Assembly (NCBI GenBank): GCA_016840125.1 | Contig: JAEOSY010000569.1 | Location: forward strand, 1 to 11,664 | Direction: 5' to 3' | DNA length: 11,664 nucleotides | Source of the DNA: Candidatus Helarchaeota archaeon | GTDB taxonomy: Archaea; Asgardarchaeota; Lokiarchaeia; Helarchaeales; HEL-GB-A | Shown here: positions 463-11,244 of the stretch, in pieces | Position numbering within the stretch: position 1 is the first letter of the stretch | How the letters are laid out: every line of letters starts with the position of its first letter | Notes under the pieces: model-generated | What the model was told of the DNA's origin: nothing | The model's input: the letters and a program-made list of their open reading frames with translations, nothing else | Database searches by the model: none | Program-made: the position numbers and the translations under genes

Positions 463-1719
463 CTAGCTCTTCGCTTTCCTTCTTCGTATAAGTAGGTGTA
501 CAGAAACCCCTATTGCAACTCCGATCCCCGCTACCAAAAAGATAATCAGCAATATTAAGAAGGGATCTACTTCAGGGGCGGTATTAATTAACGGAAAACA
601 ATACATTTCATTATCATCAGTTCCAATATAGATTTTACCATTCACAATAGCTGGAGATGAATGAATAAATGAAGTTCCAATAACCATGCCCCAAATGCTA
701 TCCCCTGTTGTTGTATTGAGGCATATGATTTTATTATCAATTCCAAAATAGATCATATCATTTGCGATGGCAGGGGAAGAGTAAATAAAATTCCCATACT
801 TCTTCTCCCAAACGATACTGCCGTTTTGGGCGAAAAAGCAGTAAAAAGTGCCGGCACTGTTTCCAAGATAAACTTTCCCATTAAAAACAGCGGGGGATGC
901 CCAAATCTTTGCGCCAGTATTTTTACTCCAGATTAAACTCCCATTTTGCGCGTCAAGGCAATATATGTAATAATCCTCAGATCCTACATAAACTTTACCA
1001 TATGCTACTACAGGCGAGGATACCACCGGATCACCAGTCGGGTAATTCCAAGTTTGGTTCTGGGTGCTCCCATTGAAACAATAGATAACATTTGAAGCCC
1101 CGAAATAGATCTGAGAACCATAAATTGCAGGCGATGAAATCATTAATCCAGCAACGGTAGCATTCCAAATTTGCTCACCTGTGGTGGCATTCAAACAAAA
1201 GAAATCATCCCCCATATTTCCAAAATAAACTTTGCCATCCTGCACTGCGGGGGATGATCTCACACCACCCAAAGAGACGTTCCAAATCATTGTGCCCGTA
1301 TCCCCGTCCAAACAGTAAAATTTTCCATCTCCGCTCCCAATAAATATTGTACCATTTACTACGGCAGGTGATGAATCTACTCTCCATCCAGTATTAAAGG
1401 TCCAATTTACATTACCTGTATTCGCATCAAGACAATAAACATTATGGTCATCACTTCCAAAAAAGATACTATTATTTACTACTGCAGGTGAAGATCGGAT
1501 GGATTCATCAGCGGATAGTTGTTGACTCCAGTAGGGACCCCGATTCTCTGTTAAAAGGGTGGATGTCACCCCAGTATTATTTAAAAATTTCCGGAATTTT
1601 ACCCATTCGTCGCCTTGGCTATCGCTGGTGATCGATGATTGGTTAAATACCGTCAATTGGAAAAATAAACTACTATATACTATAAAAACGAGTAAATAAA
1701 ACCGTAAATTTCTTTTCAT
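463..1719 (-). CDS. Membrane-anchored eight-bladed PQQ-like beta-propeller protein
   Basis: 418 residues. An N-terminal hydrophobic segment (about 6-25) acts as signal peptide or anchor. Eight repeats of about 40 residues follow, each with an SSPA strand (76, 116, 155, 195, 234, 274, 314, 354), a 'VYFG' strand, a 'YCLDAxTG' turn and a Trp strand. The first Trp strand (YWSQQ, W64) precedes the first SSPA, while the eighth repeat lacks its own, so the ring is probably closed by the N-terminal strand. A membrane segment (about 386-410) and basic tail LIRRRKAKS follow. Most of the chain should be extracellular. The PQQ-like (YWTD/BamB-type) fold is clear. Bound cofactor or enzyme activity cannot be inferred, and a scaffold or ligand-binding role is likelier. 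The ATG overlaps the upstream stop as ATGA, and an AGAGGA site lies 7 bases upstream, so it is translationally coupled to the 1290-residue surface protein. Confidence 0.85.
   Translation of the reverse strand: MKRNLRFYLLVFIVYSSLFFQLTVFNQSSITSDSQGDEWVKFRKFLNNTGVTSTLLTENRGPYWSQQLSADESIRSSPAVVNNSIFFGSDDHNVYCLDANTGNVNWTFNTGWRVDSSPAVVNGTIFIGSGDGKFYCLDGDTGTMIWNVSLGGVRSSPAVQDGKVYFGNMGDDFFCLNATTGEQIWNATVAGLMISSPAIYGSQIYFGASNVIYCFNGSTQNQTWNYPTGDPVVSSPVVAYGKVYVGSEDYYIYCLDAQNGSLIWSKNTGAKIWASPAVFNGKVYLGNSAGTFYCFFAQNGSIVWEKKYGNFIYSSPAIANDMIYFGIDNKIICLNTTTGDSIWGMVIGTSFIHSSPAIVNGKIYIGTDDNEMYCFPLINTAPEVDPFLILLIIFLVAGIGVAIGVSVHLLIRRRKAKS
586..1530 (-). repeat. Eight PQQ-like propeller blades of about 40 residues
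   Basis: Within the 418-residue protein (residues 64-378). Every blade carries Cys at the same place before the Asp/Asn turn (C96, C136, C175, C214, C254, C294, C333, C374). The repeat consensus is roughly SSPAxxNGxIYxGxxDxxxYCLDxxTGxxxW, and the blades are still similar enough to suggest expansion by duplication. Confidence 0.75.
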
Positions 1720-4700
1720 GTTAAATTCCTCTTTTGATTTTTATTACTAAGTCTTTTCATCCGTTTCTTCCGCCTTTTTATAATCACTATCAAGGAGATT
1801 GGCACAACACCTATAATAAAACCTAACACTACTATTAGCACCCAATCATTCGGCGGGCTTTGAGCTGTAAATTCGAACGAATCAGTAAGATTGCCAACAT
1901 TTCCAACTACATCTGTCCCATTCGCATTGATAATATAAATCCCATCTTTTTCAGGCGTAAAATTACCGACCCATTGGTTCGCCCCTTGATAAACCATCTC
2001 AATATTTTGAAAAAAACCATCAGGATCCGAGATATGAACTTCAAGGAGGTTAATACTCTCGGTTGAATTTGTTATTGTTATAATAACCAGGTTATTTATC
2101 TGGGAAACATCAATCCCTAGAACTGGTGGATCGAGATCCCCTTCGAGTTGCCTTGTATCATACTGGGTGACCCCTATTAAATTAGTGCCATTTACTCGGA
2201 CGGTGTATAGACCTGTGAAAGAAACTGTAATGTTACCAATCCATTGACTCATTCCTTGGTAAATCATTGGAATATACTGAAAAAAACTATTGGGTCCAGA
2301 AACATTTGCTAGAATACCTGCAGAAGTTAAAATCGAAGAATTAACCACTGTGATCTGTGTGAGCCCGTTGCTCGGATTGGGTGAAATCGCGGTGATATTT
2401 ACAAAGTAATTGATCGGGATAGAGACCGAAAACCATATTTCCCGCATTGAAATTATGTTATATGAGTTATTCGCAAATACTTGGAGGTAATAGACACCAT
2501 TTGACCATTGAAGTATTGTAGAATTGGTGAAATTTACACCGTTATATGTTAAAGTAATATTGTTAGACCAATTACTCCCCCCATCTGTACTGGTTCTATA
2601 CCAACAAGTTGCAATTTCTGAGGAATTTGATACAGTAATTGGAATGAATCCATTTGAATAGGAATTATTTTCAGGCGTTAAGAGGTTAATAGAAGGTAAG
2701 ATCGTCGTATTAATGGTAAACCATTCGTCATTCTGAAAAATGTCCCCATATGAATTATTACAAAACACTTGCAACTGATAGCTTCCAGCTCCCCATAAAA
2801 GGAGGGAACTATTAGTAAAATAACTGCCATTCCATGATAATGTAGTGTTCACAGACCATCCTACCCCAGTTGTGGTACGGTACCAAACTGACTCGACAGA
2901 ACTGACATTTTCGATGACAATGGGAACTGTTGGGTTATTGTATGTTACATTTTGTGGTATCAAAATAGATAGAAATCCACTTAGATTTAAATTACCCCAG
3001 GTACTTGCATTATTAGGATCTCTATTGAGTGGCCAATCAGCGAGATCTCCAGTATCATCGTCATACACCGAAATTGAGATACCAAGGACTTCGCCTGTTG
3101 AAGAGGGTATGATATTAAGGGGGATTTGCATTTCATAAATTGCACTTCCCGTCGAATAGTTTACCCTTCCTAAAAATCCAGCGGGAGGTGTTCCACTAAT
3201 CCAAAACGCCCCCTGCCAGTATTGATACCCTGTTATGTCATCTCCGTAAACAATAAAACAATGCTCTTGACCACCATTTAAATTATGATCATGGTTTTCA
3301 TCTACGAAAACTGAAAAGGAATCAAACATAGTTTGAGATGAGTCTCCTGATTCATTACAGGCTAAAAATAAGTGCGATGAATTGGTTTTTAAATAAAAAT
3401 GAGAAGTTTTCGTTGAGACGGTTCGATTAAAGGTAATTTTCTCCCACTCTCCTGGATTCAGGGTGCCATCAATGTTGGGAGGTGTAATTAGAAAATCTGT
3501 CATATAAGAATCTTTTAATATTTCCACAATAAAACTAGCTACTCGCCTAGATACTTTTCCATACGAGTTATTTGCATAAACTTGGAGTAAATAATGATTA
3601 TTCGTCCAAATTGTTAAATTTACAAAAGATGAACCGTCAAAAATTAAAGTATAATTTGTAGTCCAATCTGCCCCTCCATTTATACTATATCGAAACCATG
3701 CCTGATGCACTTCGGTTGAATTAGTAATATTTATAGGAAATGTTGGGGTGTTATATGTGGTATTGAGGGGCGAAATTAATTGAATGGATGGACCCAGTGT
3801 TGGGGCTGAAATAAAGAGGAGTTTGACAGCAATATTGTTTGATTCATTACTTTCGGAGATTAAATCATCCGGATCAACGCTCACTATGATGTTATGATTG
3901 CCCAAGTATCCACTCGTGTTCCATTGCGCCGAAACATAGACAGGGGCGTAATAATCTATATTCACTGATTGATTTGTAATCAAATTACTAGGATTTTGAG
4001 TATCATAATAAATTGATACTTTACAATTGGTTACGTTCGCATTCCCTTCATTTAAAATCGTACAATTGATGGTTACATTCTGCCCTTGGTTTGGTGTTTG
4101 TGGGGTAAATGCAATACCAGATGTTGTAATAGTCAAGTCGGGATAAATATTCTCCTGCATCATCATTAACTTATCTATCGAATCAGTCACGAGGAGCTTA
4201 TCAAAGGAATCTTGAGAAAAATTTGCTGTCGTTATTTGGAAATATTGGTTTGTGGTGGTAACTTGTTTATTGAAGATAAGCGTACCATTTAATCCATTCA
4301 AAGCACTTACCCATTTTCCGTTATAATCCCCATATGCGACATCAAGCTTATTATCTCCATCAAAATCAGCGATAGCTATAGTATTTACAGAACCTCCCTT
4401 GCTCCAAATTTCCCCACCCGTTTGATTTAACACGTAAATTTTATAATTTGGTCCAGATCCTCCTCCACATCCAGCAATAATTTTAGGATTAGTATCATTA
4501 TATAAATCAGCAATTGTTATATCATAAATTGGGTTGAAGTCACCAGGGGTCGAGAAATTCCACAGCGATTTACCATCACTGCCATTAATTGCGGTAACCG
4601 CTACAGAACCATCAATAACTTTTGATAGCCCAACCAGGATATCCGCACAAGAATCGCCATTAATATCACCAGTAGCGAGAGAATATCCTTTATAAGGTAG

Positions 4701-5588
4701 GGTAGTGTTCCATATTGGCTGACCATTAGTAATATTTATGGTCTGAATTGTATAGTCCGATAGGCAGATTACATCGTCCTGATCATCATTATCTATATCT
4801 GCAATCGCCAAGAAATCAGTTTTGTCATTAGGTGCGTTTTGCTTCCACAAAAGACTTCCATTTATTCCATTTATCATAAAAATTTCAGCTTCATTTACAT
4901 AAGGTGTCCCACTTGTTCCAACGACTATTTCATATTTCCCATCAGAATTGGTATCGCCAATTGCTGCTGCACGTATGTCATTAGGACCTCTCGTCGTTAA
5001 AAGAAGCGGATCCCAAAATTTCCCGTATTCCCAAATATCCGCATTCCAGATTATTGATTGAGTAATGGGATTAATCGTAGTAATGTTCGCTTTTATCCCC
5101 CCATAAATTGAAGCATTGTAGGATCTATGTGGAATTACGATTTCATTCTGCGAATCTCCTTGAATATCTGTAATGAAGAGCAATCCTTCGCGCTTTCCTA
5201 TGGCAGATGAGGGATCAAACGCTGATACAAGACCCTGAGAACTCACATTCCAAAGTTGCTGGCCATTGGAGCCGTTGAACACCATTAAGTAATCGGTTGT
5301 GCTGTTCAATGTAACAATAACTTCAGGGTTTTCGCCATCCGTGAGAACTCCGAATTGAATTGCATCAATGGTGGTCTCGCTTTCTTGCCCAATAATAGTG
5401 AGTGGTGAATTGTCCCAGACAATGTAGGACTCATTCGTATAAAGGGATTGTATATTTGAATTGGATAAAGGATTTAGTTTCGCACGATTTCCTTGGGAAA
5501 AAAGGTTGTAAAAGCTGGTTGAGCTAAAAATTAGTGTGGTTATAATAAAGACTGTCATGATTTCCCTTAACTTCCCTAATCTTTTCAT
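1716..5588 (-). CDS. Large membrane-anchored surface protein: FG-GAP/PQQ propeller, CARDB, Ig-like repeats and CBM9/DOMON-like domain
   Basis: 1290 residues from the ATG at 5588. This start follows an AAGGAG site by 9 bases and gives a signal peptide (about 8-30). An upstream GTG at 5675 would add 29 residues with no ribosome site and is less likely. Domains seen: propeller-like repeats about 70-482 with Asp-rich FG-GAP loops (DTNSDGKYE 212-220, DIDNDDQDD, DINGDSCAD, DFDGDNKLD) mixed with PQQ-type 'NGxxGxxLW' turns; CARDB domain about 484-594 ('NEGNANV', 'NESNN'); Ig-like repeat about 600-689; CBM9/DOMON-like module about 700-870 starting IDGTLNPGEWEK; four more Ig-like repeats about 871-1242; membrane helix about 1249-1270; tail KRRKKRMKRLSNKNQKRNLT. 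I count over fifty N-x-S/T sequons, so heavy N-glycosylation is expected outside the cell. Adhesion, carbohydrate recognition or S-layer association is inferred. It is the first gene of the operon. Confidence 0.85.
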   Translation of the reverse strand: MKRLGKLREIMTVFIITTLIFSSTSFYNLFSQGNRAKLNPLSNSNIQSLYTNESYIVWDNSPLTIIGQESETTIDAIQFGVLTDGENPEVIVTLNSTTDYLMVFNGSNGQQLWNVSSQGLVSAFDPSSAIGKREGLLFITDIQGDSQNEIVIPHRSYNASIYGGIKANITTINPITQSIIWNADIWEYGKFWDPLLLTTRGPNDIRAAAIGDTNSDGKYEIVVGTSGTPYVNEAEIFMINGINGSLLWKQNAPNDKTDFLAIADIDNDDQDDVICLSDYTIQTINITNGQPIWNTTLPYKGYSLATGDINGDSCADILVGLSKVIDGSVAVTAINGSDGKSLWNFSTPGDFNPIYDITIADLYNDTNPKIIAGCGGGSGPNYKIYVLNQTGGEIWSKGGSVNTIAIADFDGDNKLDVAYGDYNGKWVSALNGLNGTLIFNKQVTTTNQYFQITTANFSQDSFDKLLVTDSIDKLMMMQENIYPDLTITTSGIAFTPQTPNQGQNVTINCTILNEGNANVTNCKVSIYYDTQNPSNLITNQSVNIDYYAPVYVSAQWNTSGYLGNHNIIVSVDPDDLISESNESNNIAVKLLFISAPTLGPSIQLISPLNTTYNTPTFPINITNSTEVHQAWFRYSINGGADWTTNYTLIFDGSSFVNLTIWTNNHYLLQVYANNSYGKVSRRVASFIVEILKDSYMTDFLITPPNIDGTLNPGEWEKITFNRTVSTKTSHFYLKTNSSHLFLACNESGDSSQTMFDSFSVFVDENHDHNLNGGQEHCFIVYGDDITGYQYWQGAFWISGTPPAGFLGRVNYSTGSAIYEMQIPLNIIPSSTGEVLGISISVYDDDTGDLADWPLNRDPNNASTWGNLNLSGFLSILIPQNVTYNNPTVPIVIENVSSVESVWYRTTTGVGWSVNTTLSWNGSYFTNSSLLLWGAGSYQLQVFCNNSYGDIFQNDEWFTINTTILPSINLLTPENNSYSNGFIPITVSNSSEIATCWYRTSTDGGSNWSNNITLTYNGVNFTNSTILQWSNGVYYLQVFANNSYNIISMREIWFSVSIPINYFVNITAISPNPSNGLTQITVVNSSILTSAGILANVSGPNSFFQYIPMIYQGMSQWIGNITVSFTGLYTVRVNGTNLIGVTQYDTRQLEGDLDPPVLGIDVSQINNLVIITITNSTESINLLEVHISDPDGFFQNIEMVYQGANQWVGNFTPEKDGIYIINANGTDVVGNVGNLTDSFEFTAQSPPNDWVLIVVLGFIIGVVPISLIVIIKRRKKRMKRLSNKNQKRNLT
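1863..3791 (-). repeat. Ig-like repeat region interrupted by a CBM9/DOMON-like module
   Basis: Two repeat types are visible. Type 1 occurs three times (residues about 600-689, 871-960, 964-1056) and shares PI.I.NSSE, W(Y/F)R, W..N.TL, NG..F.NST and LQV(Y/F)(A/C)NNSYG. Type 2 occurs twice (about 1061-1153 and 1155-1242) and shares FFQ(Y/N)I.M(I/V)YQG..QW(I/V)GN and NGT. The CBM9/DOMON-like module (residues 700-870, bases 2979-3491) sits between the first and second type 1 copies. Confidence 0.7.
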
Positions 5589-5597
5589 TTTTAAGGT

Positions 5598-5636
5598 CTC
5601 CTTGAAGTTGATTGTTTGATATATTCTAAAAATAAA
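5598..5636 (-). promoter_or_regulatory. Shine-Dalgarno site and possible TATA box of the 1290-residue gene
   Basis: The minus strand reads AAGGAG at 5598-5603, nine bases before the ATG at 5588, which decides the start. A TATA-like TTTATTTTTA lies at 5627-5636 and would start transcription just upstream of the ribosome site. The surrounding A/T runs make the TATA assignment uncertain. Confidence 0.45.
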
Positions 5637-5710
5637 TTTTATTTTTTTATTTTGTAAGTTAAAGCAAAAAAACACTCATTTTTTTCCAAGTAGATCATAG
5701 ATGAATTATT

Positions 5711-6153: not shown

Positions 6154-9100
6154 TTGCAGCAAAAATCAAAGATACTATTTAGTTTATTCGCAGTTTTTCT
6201 GATAAGTTTTTCAAGTATTTCAATGTACGGAGTTTTATTTTTCAATGGAGAAAATCAAAACTCTCAAACTATCCCACAAATTCAGTCCACCCTTGAAACC
6301 CTAGCAAATTCACCCCCATCGGAGCCATACGATATTTTACAATTAATTCAAACACAATATCTAAATGTTAGGGGGAATAGCACAATTGAAACTATTAATC
6401 AAACATCATCAGATGGTCTTCGCCAAATTTTAACATTTATAGTAATCCATGAAATTAATGCCACCTGCACTGAAACGTTTTCATTTACTATAGAATCGCA
6501 GTTTTCAAATTCTGGGCCCCATCCAATTAAAGAACCTGTTGAGATAGATCGGACATCACACAATAGTACTCCTAATTTTGATCAGATAGTTATTATGGGT
6601 TTTGAATGGAGTATTGTCCCTTATCAAAAGTATGAGTTTACTTGGGAATTGAAGATTCTAGGATTTGTAATTGCTTATGCCTATTTCCGGCTCGAACTAG
6701 GTGTTGGATTAAGAATAATGTTTCCAATATCGCTTCATGTTGAATATCCATCAGAAATTCAGGCAGGGACTACAGGTGAAATAAAGATAACATGCAATGC
6801 AATAGACAAAGATGGTGAAGACTGGCCAGAATTTTACCTTGCATTTGGCTTTAAAGTAAGTGCTGGTATTTTCATTTTTGGAATTATTAATTTTGATTTT
6901 GATATACCTGTAGGTATTGTAGAGGCTAAAAGTTTCCAAACCCCCCTTGGAGGAAATCCCATCGAATTCGATATTGCAGAAATTCCATTAATGGAAATCT
7001 TGTCCCATATTCCGTATATTGGCTTTATCTTTGGATTTATTGGTGATTACATATGTGAAGTACCATTGGTAATATCTGTGGGTCTTCAATCAAGTAAAAT
7101 TACTGCATTGGCAACTACTTATGGCGCGGATTCTCATTTTGATCCAACAGGAGATACTGAAGTGCCATTAGAATGGAATTTCGACGGAGAAGAAAAGAGC
7201 TTGACAGTATATGCAGGTGAAACGGGAAATTTAAGAGTTGAATTATCTGGATTTACCATTTGGCTTGATCAAGTAGATATTATTCTTTCAATTAAAGTGG
7301 AATGGTCTAACTACCTCAGCCCCTTCTTAGGAGATGAAGCAGGACCATGGGAAATATATCGGTGGCATCTACAAACAGGTACCTACGCATTTTTTTGGTC
7401 TAATGAGATTGTCCATATAGCTATCCAAACGTCTTCAGCAATAAGTTATGGTGTCAGTCTTAGTTCAATGAGCGCTCAACAAGCTATTACACCAGGAACC
7501 GAAGCCACATATTCGTTCATCATCCAGAATGATGGAACTGGTGTTGGGATAGACACGTACACATTTAGCGTAACGAGCACCCATCAGTCATCAAATCCTG
7601 CAGACTGGATTATAATGCCCTCTATCGTAACAGTACCTGAAGGTTCCTCGAGAGAGGTAGAATTTACTATTTTACCACCTCGAGAATTTTCAACAGTAAC
7701 CGGTCTTTATGACTTCACGATAACCGCAGCTAGCCAAGGTGCAGAGGCAAACTCACAAACAGCGACAGCTTCAATAATAGGAAATTTTGAAATTTTACCC
7801 TTTTATGACGTAGAGGTTTGGAGAATTACCCAAACTGGGATCGAAAATGGAATTTTAACTTTAGAGCCAGGAAACAGTGGAATTGTGCAATTTAATGTGA
7901 CAAACACAGGTAATACGTTAGATACTTTGGATTTATCAATGGAGAATTGGTATACTAATGAAAATCCTGCGACTGGTAATTGGTTCTCTTTACCTGCAAG
8001 TGTTACCCTACAACCAGGTGAAAGCCAAATCGTGGAGGTTTCTGTTGAGGCGCTCCGGACATGGGAGGTTCATTCACTGGCATATGATTCAATACTTACA
8101 GCCGCAAGCATTAATGATCCATTTGCAAGTCGAGAAGCTCACGTTCAAATCTTTATTCTACCTTTTCACGAGGTGAGCGTTACAATCGATTCAATAAGTA
8201 AAGAGGTAATACCTGGAGATACTATTACATACGAAATTACAGTTCAAAACTTAGGAAATGTAGAGGATGTATTTGATATTTCAGTTACAGCCCTTGATGA
8301 AACTTGGTTTTCCCTTTCAGACGAATCACTCAATTTATTACCAGGAGATACTGCAACGGTTTCTCTCTCAGTTTTTCCACCACGAATATGTACAACTGCA
8401 CCAGGAGCTTATCAATTGAATTTGAATGTAATACCTCCCGTAGACCCTACAGTGATGGTCACAATTAATCCTATAGTTAACATATTACCCTATTATGAGG
8501 CAGAATTTCAATTAAATCCAATAACTTTAGAAATAAATGCTGGAAATACCGCAGAATATAGCTTTTCCATCCATAATTTAGGAAATTTAATTGATAGCTA
8601 TCAGATTACAGTAAACTTTCTTGAGTTAGGCGAGAATTCCGAAGCATTTCCGACTGTAATTCAATCTAGTTGGACAGATCTTAGTGATAGTTCTCTAACA
8701 CTTCAGCCATGTCATACTGATGATGTTCTACTTACAATAACACCCCCTTCTGATTGGGCAGGCATGCATGATACTATATATCAATTCGAAATAACAGGAG
8801 TAAGCACTTCAGACTCCTCTGTAACAGAAACTCTTACAGGGAATTTAAAAATATTTGCAAATCCTATAACAATGCTAAGATATGTTAGATATCTGGTTGA
8901 TGATTTGCAATTGGAGGGTAATGCCGAGAACCGGAAGAATGCATTAATCAATAAAATTGACCAGTGTATTGTCCTCTACCAAAATGAAGAATATGATCAG
9001 TGTTACGATAAACTTCTTCACGATATTAAACCGAAGCTCACGGGACTCAAAGTAGACGAAGAAGGTAATCCATTCGGAAATAGTCTCTTTAATAATCCAT

Positions 9101-9177
9101 GGGTCATAGACTCCGGCCTCCAGCAGGAATTCGCGGACGCAACAGATGCGATACTCTCCCTGTTAGCAAACCCTTAA
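6154..9177 (+). CDS. Large secreted protein with four NEW3/CARDB-like beta-sandwich repeats and a C-terminal FIMAH-like domain
   Basis: 1007 residues. TTG start, chosen because it yields a complete signal peptide (MQQKSKILFSLFAVFLISFS, basic then hydrophobic) and follows a purine-rich GGAAGGA. The next in-frame ATG (residue 24) would cut the signal. Residues about 50-430 are beta-rich and I do not recognise them; they include hydrophobic stretches at about 226-255 and 284-310. Four beta-sandwich repeats follow (about 430-548, 549-668, 669-778, 779-903) with 'GNT..Y.(F/I).(V/I).N.GN..D.Y', 'LQPG(E/D)' and a linking 'ILP(F/Y)(Y/H)' motif, resembling NEW3/CARDB families. The last 100 residues are helical (LVDDLQ, NRKNALINKID, YDQCYDKLLHDIKPKL), like FIMAH domains at the ends of secreted proteins. 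No C-terminal membrane segment is seen, so it is either released or held by other surface proteins. It is divergent from the surface operon. Confidence 0.8.
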   Translation: MQQKSKILFSLFAVFLISFSSISMYGVLFFNGENQNSQTIPQIQSTLETLANSPPSEPYDILQLIQTQYLNVRGNSTIETINQTSSDGLRQILTFIVIHEINATCTETFSFTIESQFSNSGPHPIKEPVEIDRTSHNSTPNFDQIVIMGFEWSIVPYQKYEFTWELKILGFVIAYAYFRLELGVGLRIMFPISLHVEYPSEIQAGTTGEIKITCNAIDKDGEDWPEFYLAFGFKVSAGIFIFGIINFDFDIPVGIVEAKSFQTPLGGNPIEFDIAEIPLMEILSHIPYIGFIFGFIGDYICEVPLVISVGLQSSKITALATTYGADSHFDPTGDTEVPLEWNFDGEEKSLTVYAGETGNLRVELSGFTIWLDQVDIILSIKVEWSNYLSPFLGDEAGPWEIYRWHLQTGTYAFFWSNEIVHIAIQTSSAISYGVSLSSMSAQQAITPGTEATYSFIIQNDGTGVGIDTYTFSVTSTHQSSNPADWIIMPSIVTVPEGSSREVEFTILPPREFSTVTGLYDFTITAASQGAEANSQTATASIIGNFEILPFYDVEVWRITQTGIENGILTLEPGNSGIVQFNVTNTGNTLDTLDLSMENWYTNENPATGNWFSLPASVTLQPGESQIVEVSVEALRTWEVHSLAYDSILTAASINDPFASREAHVQIFILPFHEVSVTIDSISKEVIPGDTITYEITVQNLGNVEDVFDISVTALDETWFSLSDESLNLLPGDTATVSLSVFPPRICTTAPGAYQLNLNVIPPVDPTVMVTINPIVNILPYYEAEFQLNPITLEINAGNTAEYSFSIHNLGNLIDSYQITVNFLELGENSEAFPTVIQSSWTDLSDSSLTLQPCHTDDVLLTITPPSDWAGMHDTIYQFEITGVSTSDSSVTETLTGNLKIFANPITMLRYVRYLVDDLQLEGNAENRKNALINKIDQCIVLYQNEEYDQCYDKLLHDIKPKLTGLKVDEEGNPFGNSLFNNPWVIDSGLQQEFADATDAILSLLANP
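7441..8862 (+). repeat. Four tandem beta-sandwich repeats of 110-125 residues
   Basis: Repeat boundaries are marked by ILPFYDVEV (residue 547), ILPFHEVSV (668) and ILPYYEAEF (777). Each unit has an N-terminal 'PG.T..Y', a middle 'N.G...D.(F/Y)' and a late 'LQPG' or 'LLPGD' strand followed by '.PP(R/S)'. The pattern is that of extracellular spacer domains that extend a functional end away from the cell. Confidence 0.7.
8866..9174 (+). other. C-terminal FIMAH-like helical domain
   Basis: Residues about 905-1007 of the 1007-residue protein. Helices with 'LVDDLQL', 'NRKNALINKIDQCIVLY', 'EEYDQCYDKLLHDIKPKL' and a final 'FADATDAILSLL' resemble the FIMAH pattern (short Leu-rich helix, then a hairpin with a small basic central motif). 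Assignment is by pattern memory only. Confidence 0.45.
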
Positions 9178-9335: not shown

Positions 9336-10208
9336 TTATAATGAAATTAAGGAATTTAAAATTCCCAACGTAGCTAATATTGCCTCTTCTACTCGAATTG
9401 TCTTAGTTCCCTGCTCAGGTGCAATATTAAAAATGAGGTCTACCAATTCATCTAGTTTTAAACCATTCCTCTTAAAAATTTCGAATAGACCCATATGAGG
9501 ACTCCCAAATAGCAATAAAATCTTGTTGATCTCATCTAATTTGAAAATTTTGAGATCTTTCTTTTTTATAGGAGTACCATACCTCGAAGTTGCAATTTTT
9601 AGAGAGATTTCAAACTTTTTAATCAACTGTGTAATCGAATCCTTAAAAATTCGGATATCAAAACCCCAATATTGCTTTATTTCTGCTTTTATTATTGGTT
9701 CTCCAGAAATACTATTTCCATTTTTCCTAATTCGCAGTTTAATTCGGGATTTAGGGGAAAGGTTTGGAACTTGAATCCTAATTGGCGTTTCTATACCTAT
9801 ATCTATTTCTGAAAAAATATCATTAGAAAAAAGCACCGCGCCTTCTCGTACTGAGTCTGCAATTAATTGGGATGCTTTTTTCTCAATTGGATGATGTGGT
9901 GTCCTTAAAGGTGGTAATGTTCCAACATATTTAAAGATAGGTAATTTTGGGAAAAGAAAACGTCTAAGATATTGAGGACAATCTAAATATTCTAATATAT
10001 TTTTTAATAGCGTGATGTCTTTCGAAAAATCTTTCAAAAATTTTCTATTAATCGAATAAATAATTACTTCGTCAACCTTATAAATAACACAAGCTCTCGC
10101 AATTTGCCCAATTTTTTGTGTTTTCGAACGAAGATCACTGCAATTCTCTAAAACATTGGATGGAATTGCGATACTAATATGAACTTTTTGCAATTTAATC
10201 AGTTCCAA
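9336..10208 (-). CDS. SPOUT-fold RNA methyltransferase, SPOUT1/C9orf114 (COG2106) family
   Basis: 290 residues, a normal length for archaeal members such as MTH1. Motifs seen: VHISIAIPSNVLENC (9-23), IGQIARACVIYKVDEVIIYS (33-52), EYLDCPQYLRRFLFP (73-87), LPPLRTPHH (98-106), an inserted beta region about 115-180 that fits the family's OB-like insertion, and the trefoil-knot cofactor end LLLFGSPHMGLFEIF (231-245) with APEQGTKTIRVEEAILATL (263-281). By family knowledge it binds S-adenosylmethionine and modifies RNA. Human SPOUT1 is linked to uridine N3 methylation of large-subunit rRNA, and the same target here is inferred. The TTG start is the only usual start between an in-frame TAA upstream and the conserved N-terminus. 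The G-rich stretch just before it is too close for an ideal ribosome site. The gene lies 127 bases after the GTPase gene and may share its transcript, although it has its own TATA-like sequences. Confidence 0.88.
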   Translation of the reverse strand: MELIKLQKVHISIAIPSNVLENCSDLRSKTQKIGQIARACVIYKVDEVIIYSINRKFLKDFSKDITLLKNILEYLDCPQYLRRFLFPKLPIFKYVGTLPPLRTPHHPIEKKASQLIADSVREGAVLFSNDIFSEIDIGIETPIRIQVPNLSPKSRIKLRIRKNGNSISGEPIIKAEIKQYWGFDIRIFKDSITQLIKKFEISLKIATSRYGTPIKKKDLKIFKLDEINKILLLFGSPHMGLFEIFKRNGLKLDELVDLIFNIAPEQGTKTIRVEEAILATLGILNSLISL

Positions 10209-10335: not shown

Positions 10336-10668
10336 CTACTGTTCTTGCTCACCTGCCGATCGCGCCCATTCGTCAATTGCAGTCGTAATAAGACTCATTA
10401 GTTCTTCACGGAAGGTTGGATTAATTCCCACCATTGGGTAACACTGAACACTGAGAAGACGTTCAACCAATTTAGGTTTCATTGCCCGAGGCAGATCCTG
10501 TTTATTACACAGACAATAAGTTAGTAAATCAGTTTTCCGTTTTTTAATAACATTCAAATAAACACGTTTTGTACTGACAACATTTTCAACGGTACTATCA
10601 GTAACCAATAAAACTATATTTGTTCCTCTTAACAAAAATGTCCAGAGCGGAGTTACGTCCCAAACCGA
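10336..10668 (-). pseudogene. C-terminal part of the longin-Arf-like GTPase, downstream of an in-frame stop
   Basis: Same reading frame as the upstream part, separated only by the TAA at 10669-10671. After the stop it reads SVWDVTPLWTFLLRGTNIV, then LLVTDSTVENVVSTK, then the G4 block CNKQDLPRAM (Arf proteins have NKQDLPxAM), then 'YPMVGINPTFREELMSLI' as the G5 region and final helix, ending ARSAGEQEQ. It is intact to its natural end, so the break is recent or tolerated. Independent translation could only use a TTG at 10635 inside the conserved LLRG stretch, with no ribosome site, and would give a fragment without the P-loop. I treat it as the second half of one 302-codon gene. Whether a full protein is ever made cannot be told from the sequence. 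Confidence 0.7.
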
Positions 10669-10680
10669 TTAGTACGGTAA
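10651..10680 (-). other. Ten extra codons with an in-frame TAA in the switch II region, in a predicted hairpin
   Basis: The frame reads GQERYT-LPY*SVWDVT-PLWTFLLRGT. Removing ten codons gives GQERYTPLW, the same length as GQDKIRPLW in Arf1 (remembered, not aligned here), so this 30-nt stretch looks like an in-frame insertion with a Thr codon at each edge. In the RNA, GGAGCG (10688-10693) can pair with CGCUCU (10644-10649), UUAU (10684-10687) with GUAA (10653-10656), and ACCG (10675-10678) with CGGU (10664-10667), leaving the stop in a 7-base loop (10668-10674). A 3-base bulge (CUC) and a 4-bp central helix recall archaeal bulge-helix-bulge introns, but the second bulge is not canonical. Confidence 0.5.
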
Positions 10681-11244
10681 GGTATAACGCTCCTGCCCTG
10701 CAAAATCCCAAATAATCACATCGTAGGTTGCTGATACATCGAGTTTTTTTACATCCACTGCGATCGTTGGATTATATTCAATAGGGATATCAGACCCCCG
10801 CATGAGATTTAAAAGAGTGGTTTTCCCGACACCACCGAAACCAACCAGAGCAATCTTAATAATTCCGCTGAGAACTTTTTCCACGGACGCTTCAAAATCC
10901 ACCCAAATATCCTGAGATTGGCCATCCCAAGTTGCTAATTTAGTATATTGCTCATCAGCGAAAACGTCCTTCACACGCTTGATTCGTTGGTGCAATCCAA
11001 GTTCATCATCCTCCTGATCAGCACAGAATACATGGATAAGATCTCTCTTATTATCAACCGTATAGACGAATTTCAACCTCCCACTAGCTACAGATTTAAT
11101 AGAACCATCTGGCATGGCACCAGTGAAAGAAGTTAAAGCAGATAGGAAAACTGATACAAGACTCTCATCAATTTTTATTGCCCCAAAGCTTTTCTGATAG
11201 AGAACAGTTCCATCAGTTCGAATTACATAAATAGAATGTATCAC
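10669..11244 (-). CDS. Longin-like domain fused to the N-terminal half of an Arf-like small GTPase (ends at an in-frame stop)
   Basis: 191 codons from a GTG start. The start is fixed by GAGGTGAT six bases upstream. Residues 1-128 form a longin/roadblock-type alpha-beta domain (IYVIRTDGTVLYQKSFG, then FLSALTSFTGAM, LKFVYTVDNKRDLIHVFCA). The GTPase follows: IKIALVGFGGVGKTT (G1, 129-143), YNPTIAVD (G2, T160), VIIWDFAGQERY (G3, 176-187). Translation stops at codon 192 inside switch II, so the product lacks G4 and G5 and should not work as a GTPase alone. Longin platforms that regulate GTPases act in eukaryotic membrane traffic (for example SRX with SRbeta), and fusions of this kind are reported from Asgard archaea. 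A role at internal membranes or in polarity is inferred. It is followed by the SPOUT gene. If read through, the protein would be about 302 residues. Confidence 0.8.
   Translation of the reverse strand: MIHSIYVIRTDGTVLYQKSFGAIKIDESLVSVFLSALTSFTGAMPDGSIKSVASGRLKFVYTVDNKRDLIHVFCADQEDDELGLHQRIKRVKDVFADEQYTKLATWDGQSQDIWVDFEASVEKVLSGIIKIALVGFGGVGKTTLLNLMRGSDIPIEYNPTIAVDVKKLDVSATYDVIIWDFAGQERYTLPY

Follow-up and report, generated by a model that had tools for sequence, protein, structure and literature searches.

The question raised by this locus is why a gene for an Arf-type GTPase carries ten extra codons, one of them a stop, in switch II. The gene lies on the minus strand of the window, the whole 11,664-nucleotide stretch of DNA that was analysed. 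The Asgard archaea are held to be the archaeal group closest to eukaryotes, and the interrupted gene is a relative of the eukaryotic membrane-traffic GTPases.

The interrupted GTPase gene

The reading frame occupies positions 10336..11244 (minus strand). It was followed by translation from a GTG at 11244 to a stop ending at 10336, and its sole break is a TAA at 10671..10669. On the 3' side of the TAA the frame continues with PLW, LLRGTN, NKQDLPRAM and the final helix, all of them intact. This confirms the initial annotation, which had described two GTPase halves in one frame with a single TAA between them and intact motifs downstream. Exon 1 (10684..11244) holds the GTG start, the N-terminal domain and the first GTPase half up to GQERY, and exon 2 (10336..10653) runs from TPLW to the stop.

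The first half of the gene matched the Pfam families Roc, Ras and Arf, and the second half matched Arf. The P-loop, GQE and NKQD motifs of an Arf/Ras-type G domain are present. Among solved structures the best sequence matches were Arf proteins, using the close relative P0001 as the query. The name longin for the N-terminal part is a label taken over from the initial annotation. The first half did not match the longin family of Pfam at E 0.001; P0031 and P0116, both distant homologs, carry a precomputed assignment to PF13774, which we take to be Longin.

Compared with the Hel_GB_A gene, synonymous sites were saturated and the nonsynonymous proportion was 0.060 for exon 1 versus 0.088 for exon 2. 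Relative to the Hel_GB_B gene it was 0.212 and 0.175, respectively. Judged from these comparisons, both halves are conserved and the gene does not look decayed. Its downstream neighbour (10208..9336) encodes a putative RNA methyltransferase (PF02598), and by eye the start of a similar gene also lies 3' of the GTPase gene in Hel_GB_A.

Relatives without the ten codons

A search with the first half generated 61 proteins. Of these, 21 were aligned together with the two halves from the window, giving 23 rows. The close full-length relatives P0001, P0002, P0003, P0004 and P0005 are 96%, 94%, 91%, 88% and 89% identical to the window's protein, respectively. In the protein alignment all five read GQERYTPLWTFLLRGTN at the site. 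The GTPase is also uninterrupted in the DNA of Hel_GB_A and Hel_GB_B; with these two counted in, 4/4 genomes of the order are free of the break. Judged by such relatives, the window would come from a Helarchaeota-like archaeon of the Asgard group. The initial annotation had counted ten extra codons against GQDKIRPLW of Arf1, and had suggested aligning homologs from related genomes. The count holds, as the ten codons are missing from the five proteins and the two genomes, where ERYT-PLW is read directly.

At the class level 62/83 genomes were matched at E 1e-50 and 60/62 rows were free of stops, although 58 of the 62 matches are just 33-44% identical and may be non-orthologs. The two rows marked with stops, from genomes G027 and G061, each proved to hold an intact ORF (292 and 294 aa). 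Four stop-marked GTPase matches in genomes G001 and G002 were likewise set aside by eye, their frames being intact and the stops lying outside the GTPase.

BLASTN with 67 bases of the site against the 83 class genomes gave matches in 13 (E ≤1, best 0.04), which were taken as chance. No relative turned up when viral contigs were scanned twice, and a plasmid search gave no match. The exact 30 nt occurred in 0/134 fetched loci. Scanned against Rfam at gathering thresholds, the window produced no match.

Fold of the insert

The insert had been drawn as a hairpin in the initial annotation. A hairpin is present and is unusually stable over 63 nt (10700..10638), with a minimum free energy (MFE) of -24.4 kcal/mol, a z of -3.65 and 0/200 shuffles. 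Stability was less unusual in a 101-nt frame (z -1.40, 21/200 shuffles). The pairing first drawn reaches -11.1 kcal/mol, against -24.4 for the MFE fold, and was rejected; its 6-bp outer helix and its bulge ACC were not upheld.

Folding the RNA, as had been proposed, showed that the MFE structure is a canonical bulge-helix-bulge (BHB): a 4-bp central helix H, 3-nt bulges on opposite strands, an outer helix h of 4 bp and an inner helix h' of 2 bp. All elements are on the minus strand. In H, CGTT (10686..10689) pairs with GACG (10656..10659), and in h, GGAG (10690..10693) pairs with CTCC (10649..10652). With a slash marking the cut, bulge 1 is AU/A (10683..10685), with the predicted 5' cut at 10684/10683, and bulge 2 is UA/A (10653..10655), with the predicted 3' cut at 10654/10653. 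The inner part (10660..10682) consists of CC paired with GG, a 2x2 U loop, ACCG paired with CGGU, and the 7-nt terminal loop UACUAAU, which by translation and fold contains the in-frame TAA (10669..10671). The inner helix adjoining the bulges is short, 2 bp followed by U-U mismatches. Beneath h, a lower exon-exon helix (10643..10700) pairs CAGGGC (10700..10695) with GCTCTG (10648..10643), and one bulged A separates it from h. The MFE structure stayed the same at 20, 37 and 60 °C; at 70 °C one top pair opened. Pair probabilities in the central helix were 0.69-0.75.

Canonical cuts in this structure remove exactly 30 nt (10683..10654), TAA included. The predicted intron, supported by the MFE fold, the cut register and the controls below, is ACCTTACCGTACTAATCGGTTTGGGACGTA (10654..10683, minus strand). 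Its removal joins GAG CGT TAT / ACT CCG CTC TGG, which reads QERYTPLW, and restores the frame. The initial annotation had found that equivalent cuts would remove 31 nt and had called the fit imperfect; that misfit arose because of its own pairing. Four cut registers keep YTPLW, and the sole one with H of 4, h of 4 and h' of 2 bp is that of the canonical cuts.

Chance controls

Pairings of BHB shape enclosing introns of 15-100 nt were counted over the whole window, which generated 124 on the minus strand and 76 on the plus strand. Such a pairing alone is common, and weight was therefore placed on register and homology. When the exons were kept and the insert was shuffled, H of 4 bp with h of at least 4 bp in an allowed register, that is one compatible with the protein, arose in 2973/100,000 sequences, and in 402/100,000 with the additional demand that h' be at least 2 bp. 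This is the milder control because h pairs exon with exon. When the insert was shuffled and the flanking codons were also synonymously recoded, the counts were 324/100,000 and, with h' of at least 2 bp, 67/100,000.

Among recoded controls with 6, 8 and 12 flanking codons, 2/20,000, 1/8,000 and 0/8,000, respectively, had an MFE fold that was a canonical BHB and lay in an allowed register. Equal or better stability was reached by 91/20,000, 63/8,000 and 1348/8,000 of them. Stability by itself is less striking than the BHB geometry in register. No direct repeat was found in 10450-10900, so the insert was not copied from its flanks.

A second interrupted lineage

A similar insert was found in P0006, a protein of 202 aa with 21 member sequences that is 87% identical to the window's. 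P0006 ends GQERYTLGY, not PLW, and the first half in the window ends GQERYTLPY. The insert of P0006 is known from the protein alone; as the ORF ends with LGY, a stop is assumed to follow, although the end could also be that of a contig. Shuffles of the intron placed T, L, any residue, Y and a stop at codons 1-5 in 13/1,000,000 cases. Because the pattern is this rare, common descent or transfer probably links the two inserts.

P0005 has no insert though it is 97% identical to P0006. A tree built from the exon 1 portion places P0006 beside the intron-free P0005 at an unresolved fork and groups the window with the intron-free P0001 and P0002 (support 98/96). The distribution of the insert is related but patchy. 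If the same intron sits in two separated lineages that each have intron-free close relatives, it would have undergone repeated loss or horizontal spread.

P0062 (92 aa, from a Helarchaeota MAG) consists of the C-terminal GTPase half alone and starts after the site. It may be a third interrupted copy or the product of a contig edge, and was excluded from the counts. Among the 120 of 1060 proteins that a profile search listed, P0006 and P0018 were the sole ones to look, judged by length, like a first half. The sequence of P0018 (180 aa, on a 7782-base contig) finishes with LSDRFEVN at a place where the other proteins have DRFEVIIWDFAG; this may be a further interruption, some dozen codons before the GTPase insert site.

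Survey of BHB motifs

The search for BHBs that join broken frames was extended to ~620 kb of genomes G003 and G001, plus the window, with five decoy geometries as controls. There was no excess, with 54 hits (the window's included) versus 67, 45, 37, 46 and 50 for the decoys. The window's BHB ranks third among the hits by a crude pairing score. Ten hits examined by eye mostly resemble neighbouring genes or intergenic stretches. The ~620-kb survey gave no evidence of frequent mRNA introns of the BHB kind. At L100:6016-6035 (plus strand) in G003, two long frames are separated by a 19-nt BHB-like stretch; this is probably a frameshift or a pair of neighbouring genes.

ARAGORN was run with introns on 30 tRNA loci. 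Of its 16 distinct intron calls, 6 fit H of 4 bp with h of at least 4 bp, tolerating shifts of ≤4 and lengths within 1, and 10/16 do not. Strict BHB introns do occur in tRNA genes of this group.

Splicing machinery

The splicing-endonuclease family PF01974 scored over the cut-off in 4/4 genomes of the order, with two copies in three genomes and one in G001. The ligase RtcB (PF01139) was also over the cut-off in 4/4. By eye, a DHAPF stretch is common to the endonuclease copies L040-L042, and the DHAPF histidine is lacking in L043-L046. We take this histidine to be the catalytic one. On these sequences L040-L042 would be catalytic and L043-L046 structural subunits. The nearest genome, G001, has as its sole endonuclease-family copy found one of the kind seemingly without the catalytic histidine. 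Archaeal pre-mRNA splicing is tied to hetero-oligomeric endonucleases in PMC2738675, as it is in a title in the reference list of PMC12397907.

Alternative explanations

The chief rivals to a BHB intron are a disabled allele and then translational bypassing. Had a 30-nt insertion with a stop recently broken the gene, an in-frame stop and uninterrupted nearest relatives would be seen, as they are. Yet constraint on exon 2 is about equal to that on exon 1, the remainder of the frame is open, a similar insert occurs in a second lineage, and the insert has no direct repeat to mark it as a copy of its flanks; we regard a recent pseudogene as unlikely. Bypassing would require a ribosome with tRNA-Thr on ACC (10683..10681) to hop 30 nt to ACT (10653..10651). 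Take-off and landing codons both encode Thr, the product would be YTPLW, and the insert is a hairpin of patchy distribution. Known bypassing elements, such as T4 gene 60 and the byps of Magnusiomyces mitochondria, are also short hairpin inserts in coding genes that leave the protein unchanged. These act at translation and need no BHB, whereas the GTPase insert has one in exact geometry with frame-restoring cuts, and the matched codons are expected simply from the position of the insert. We know of no archaeal case, and consider bypassing quite unlikely.

Readthrough of the stop would make the ten codons a translated insertion in switch II. It agrees with a frame that is continuous except for one TAA, but relatives read ERYT-PLW directly and ten extra residues in switch II are expected to spoil a GTPase. 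Comparable archaeal readthrough of TAA is, to our knowledge, without example, and this reading seems very improbable. An error of assembly or sequencing might be suspected of a window that is a single record; it is hard to credit, given that a separate protein cluster of 21 member sequences (P0006) has a similar insert and that a canonical BHB in register is not expected from an error.

A predicted BHB intron in an Asgard mRNA

The ten codons are probably a 30-nt BHB intron in the pre-mRNA of a putative longin-Arf GTPase from a Helarchaeota-like archaeon. The BHB intron proposed in the initial annotation emerges in a stronger form, with relatives that lack the codons, a canonical MFE fold and cuts that restore YTPLW, and with splicing as its predicted outcome. 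The computed observations are the insert, its absence from relatives, the fold, the frame-restoring register, a protein-level match to the insert in a second lineage, the conserved halves of the gene and, in four genomes of the order, the enzyme genes. From these we infer cleavage and ligation of the RNA in vivo. The tRNA-splicing endonuclease would cut each 3-nt bulge after its second base, and an RtcB-type ligase would then join the exon ends so that TAT is followed by ACT in GAG CGT TAT / ACT CCG CTC TGG (QERYTPLW).

A retained intron in switch II would give a truncated protein, and splicing could therefore switch the GTPase on or off. That the insert represents a small, shared and unstable class of Asgard mRNA introns, removed by the tRNA machinery and usable as such a switch, is a tentative and rather doubtful extension.

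Introns in archaeal protein genes have very rarely been reported. According to PMC2738675, cbf5 was the sole confirmed archaeal pre-mRNA BHB case by 2009, others being predicted and unconfirmed. As counted in PMC7714728, one BHB intron had been reported by 2020 besides the HVO_1309 leader intron, that of crenarchaeal cbf5 mRNA. The cbf5 intron of Crenarchaeota lies in another gene and another phylum, whereas the host here is an Arf-type GTPase; its structures are mostly unconventional BHBs, whereas the GTPase intron is canonical; and its splicing is backed by cDNA, whereas that of the GTPase intron is predicted (PMC2738675). The 46-nt intron in the 5' UTR of HVO_1309 of Haloferax, for which processing by the splicing endonuclease was confirmed in vitro, is flanked by a BHB and lies in an mRNA like the GTPase intron, but in the leader and not inside the coding frame (PMC7714728). 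In three genomes of Asgard archaea (Atabeyarchaeia and Freyarchaeia), 92-95% of the tRNA genes contain BHB introns (PMC11291895). Archaeal tRNA introns presumably share motif and enzyme with the GTPase case, which is in an mRNA and not a tRNA. Full-text searches of open-licence papers brought up none that, judged by its title and the opening of its abstract, deals with a BHB intron in a protein gene of an Asgard archaeon.

The GTPase intron would extend BHB introns to the protein genes of Asgard archaea. If it is real, ORFs that look split in Asgard genomes may in some cases belong to spliced genes, a warning for annotation. The site is a ready substrate for an in vitro splicing test.

The rest of the window contains long ORFs at 463-5675 (minus strand) and 6154-9177 (plus strand), with beta-propeller, FG-GAP, CARDB and Ig-like Pfam matches. 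Perhaps these encode surface or secreted proteins.
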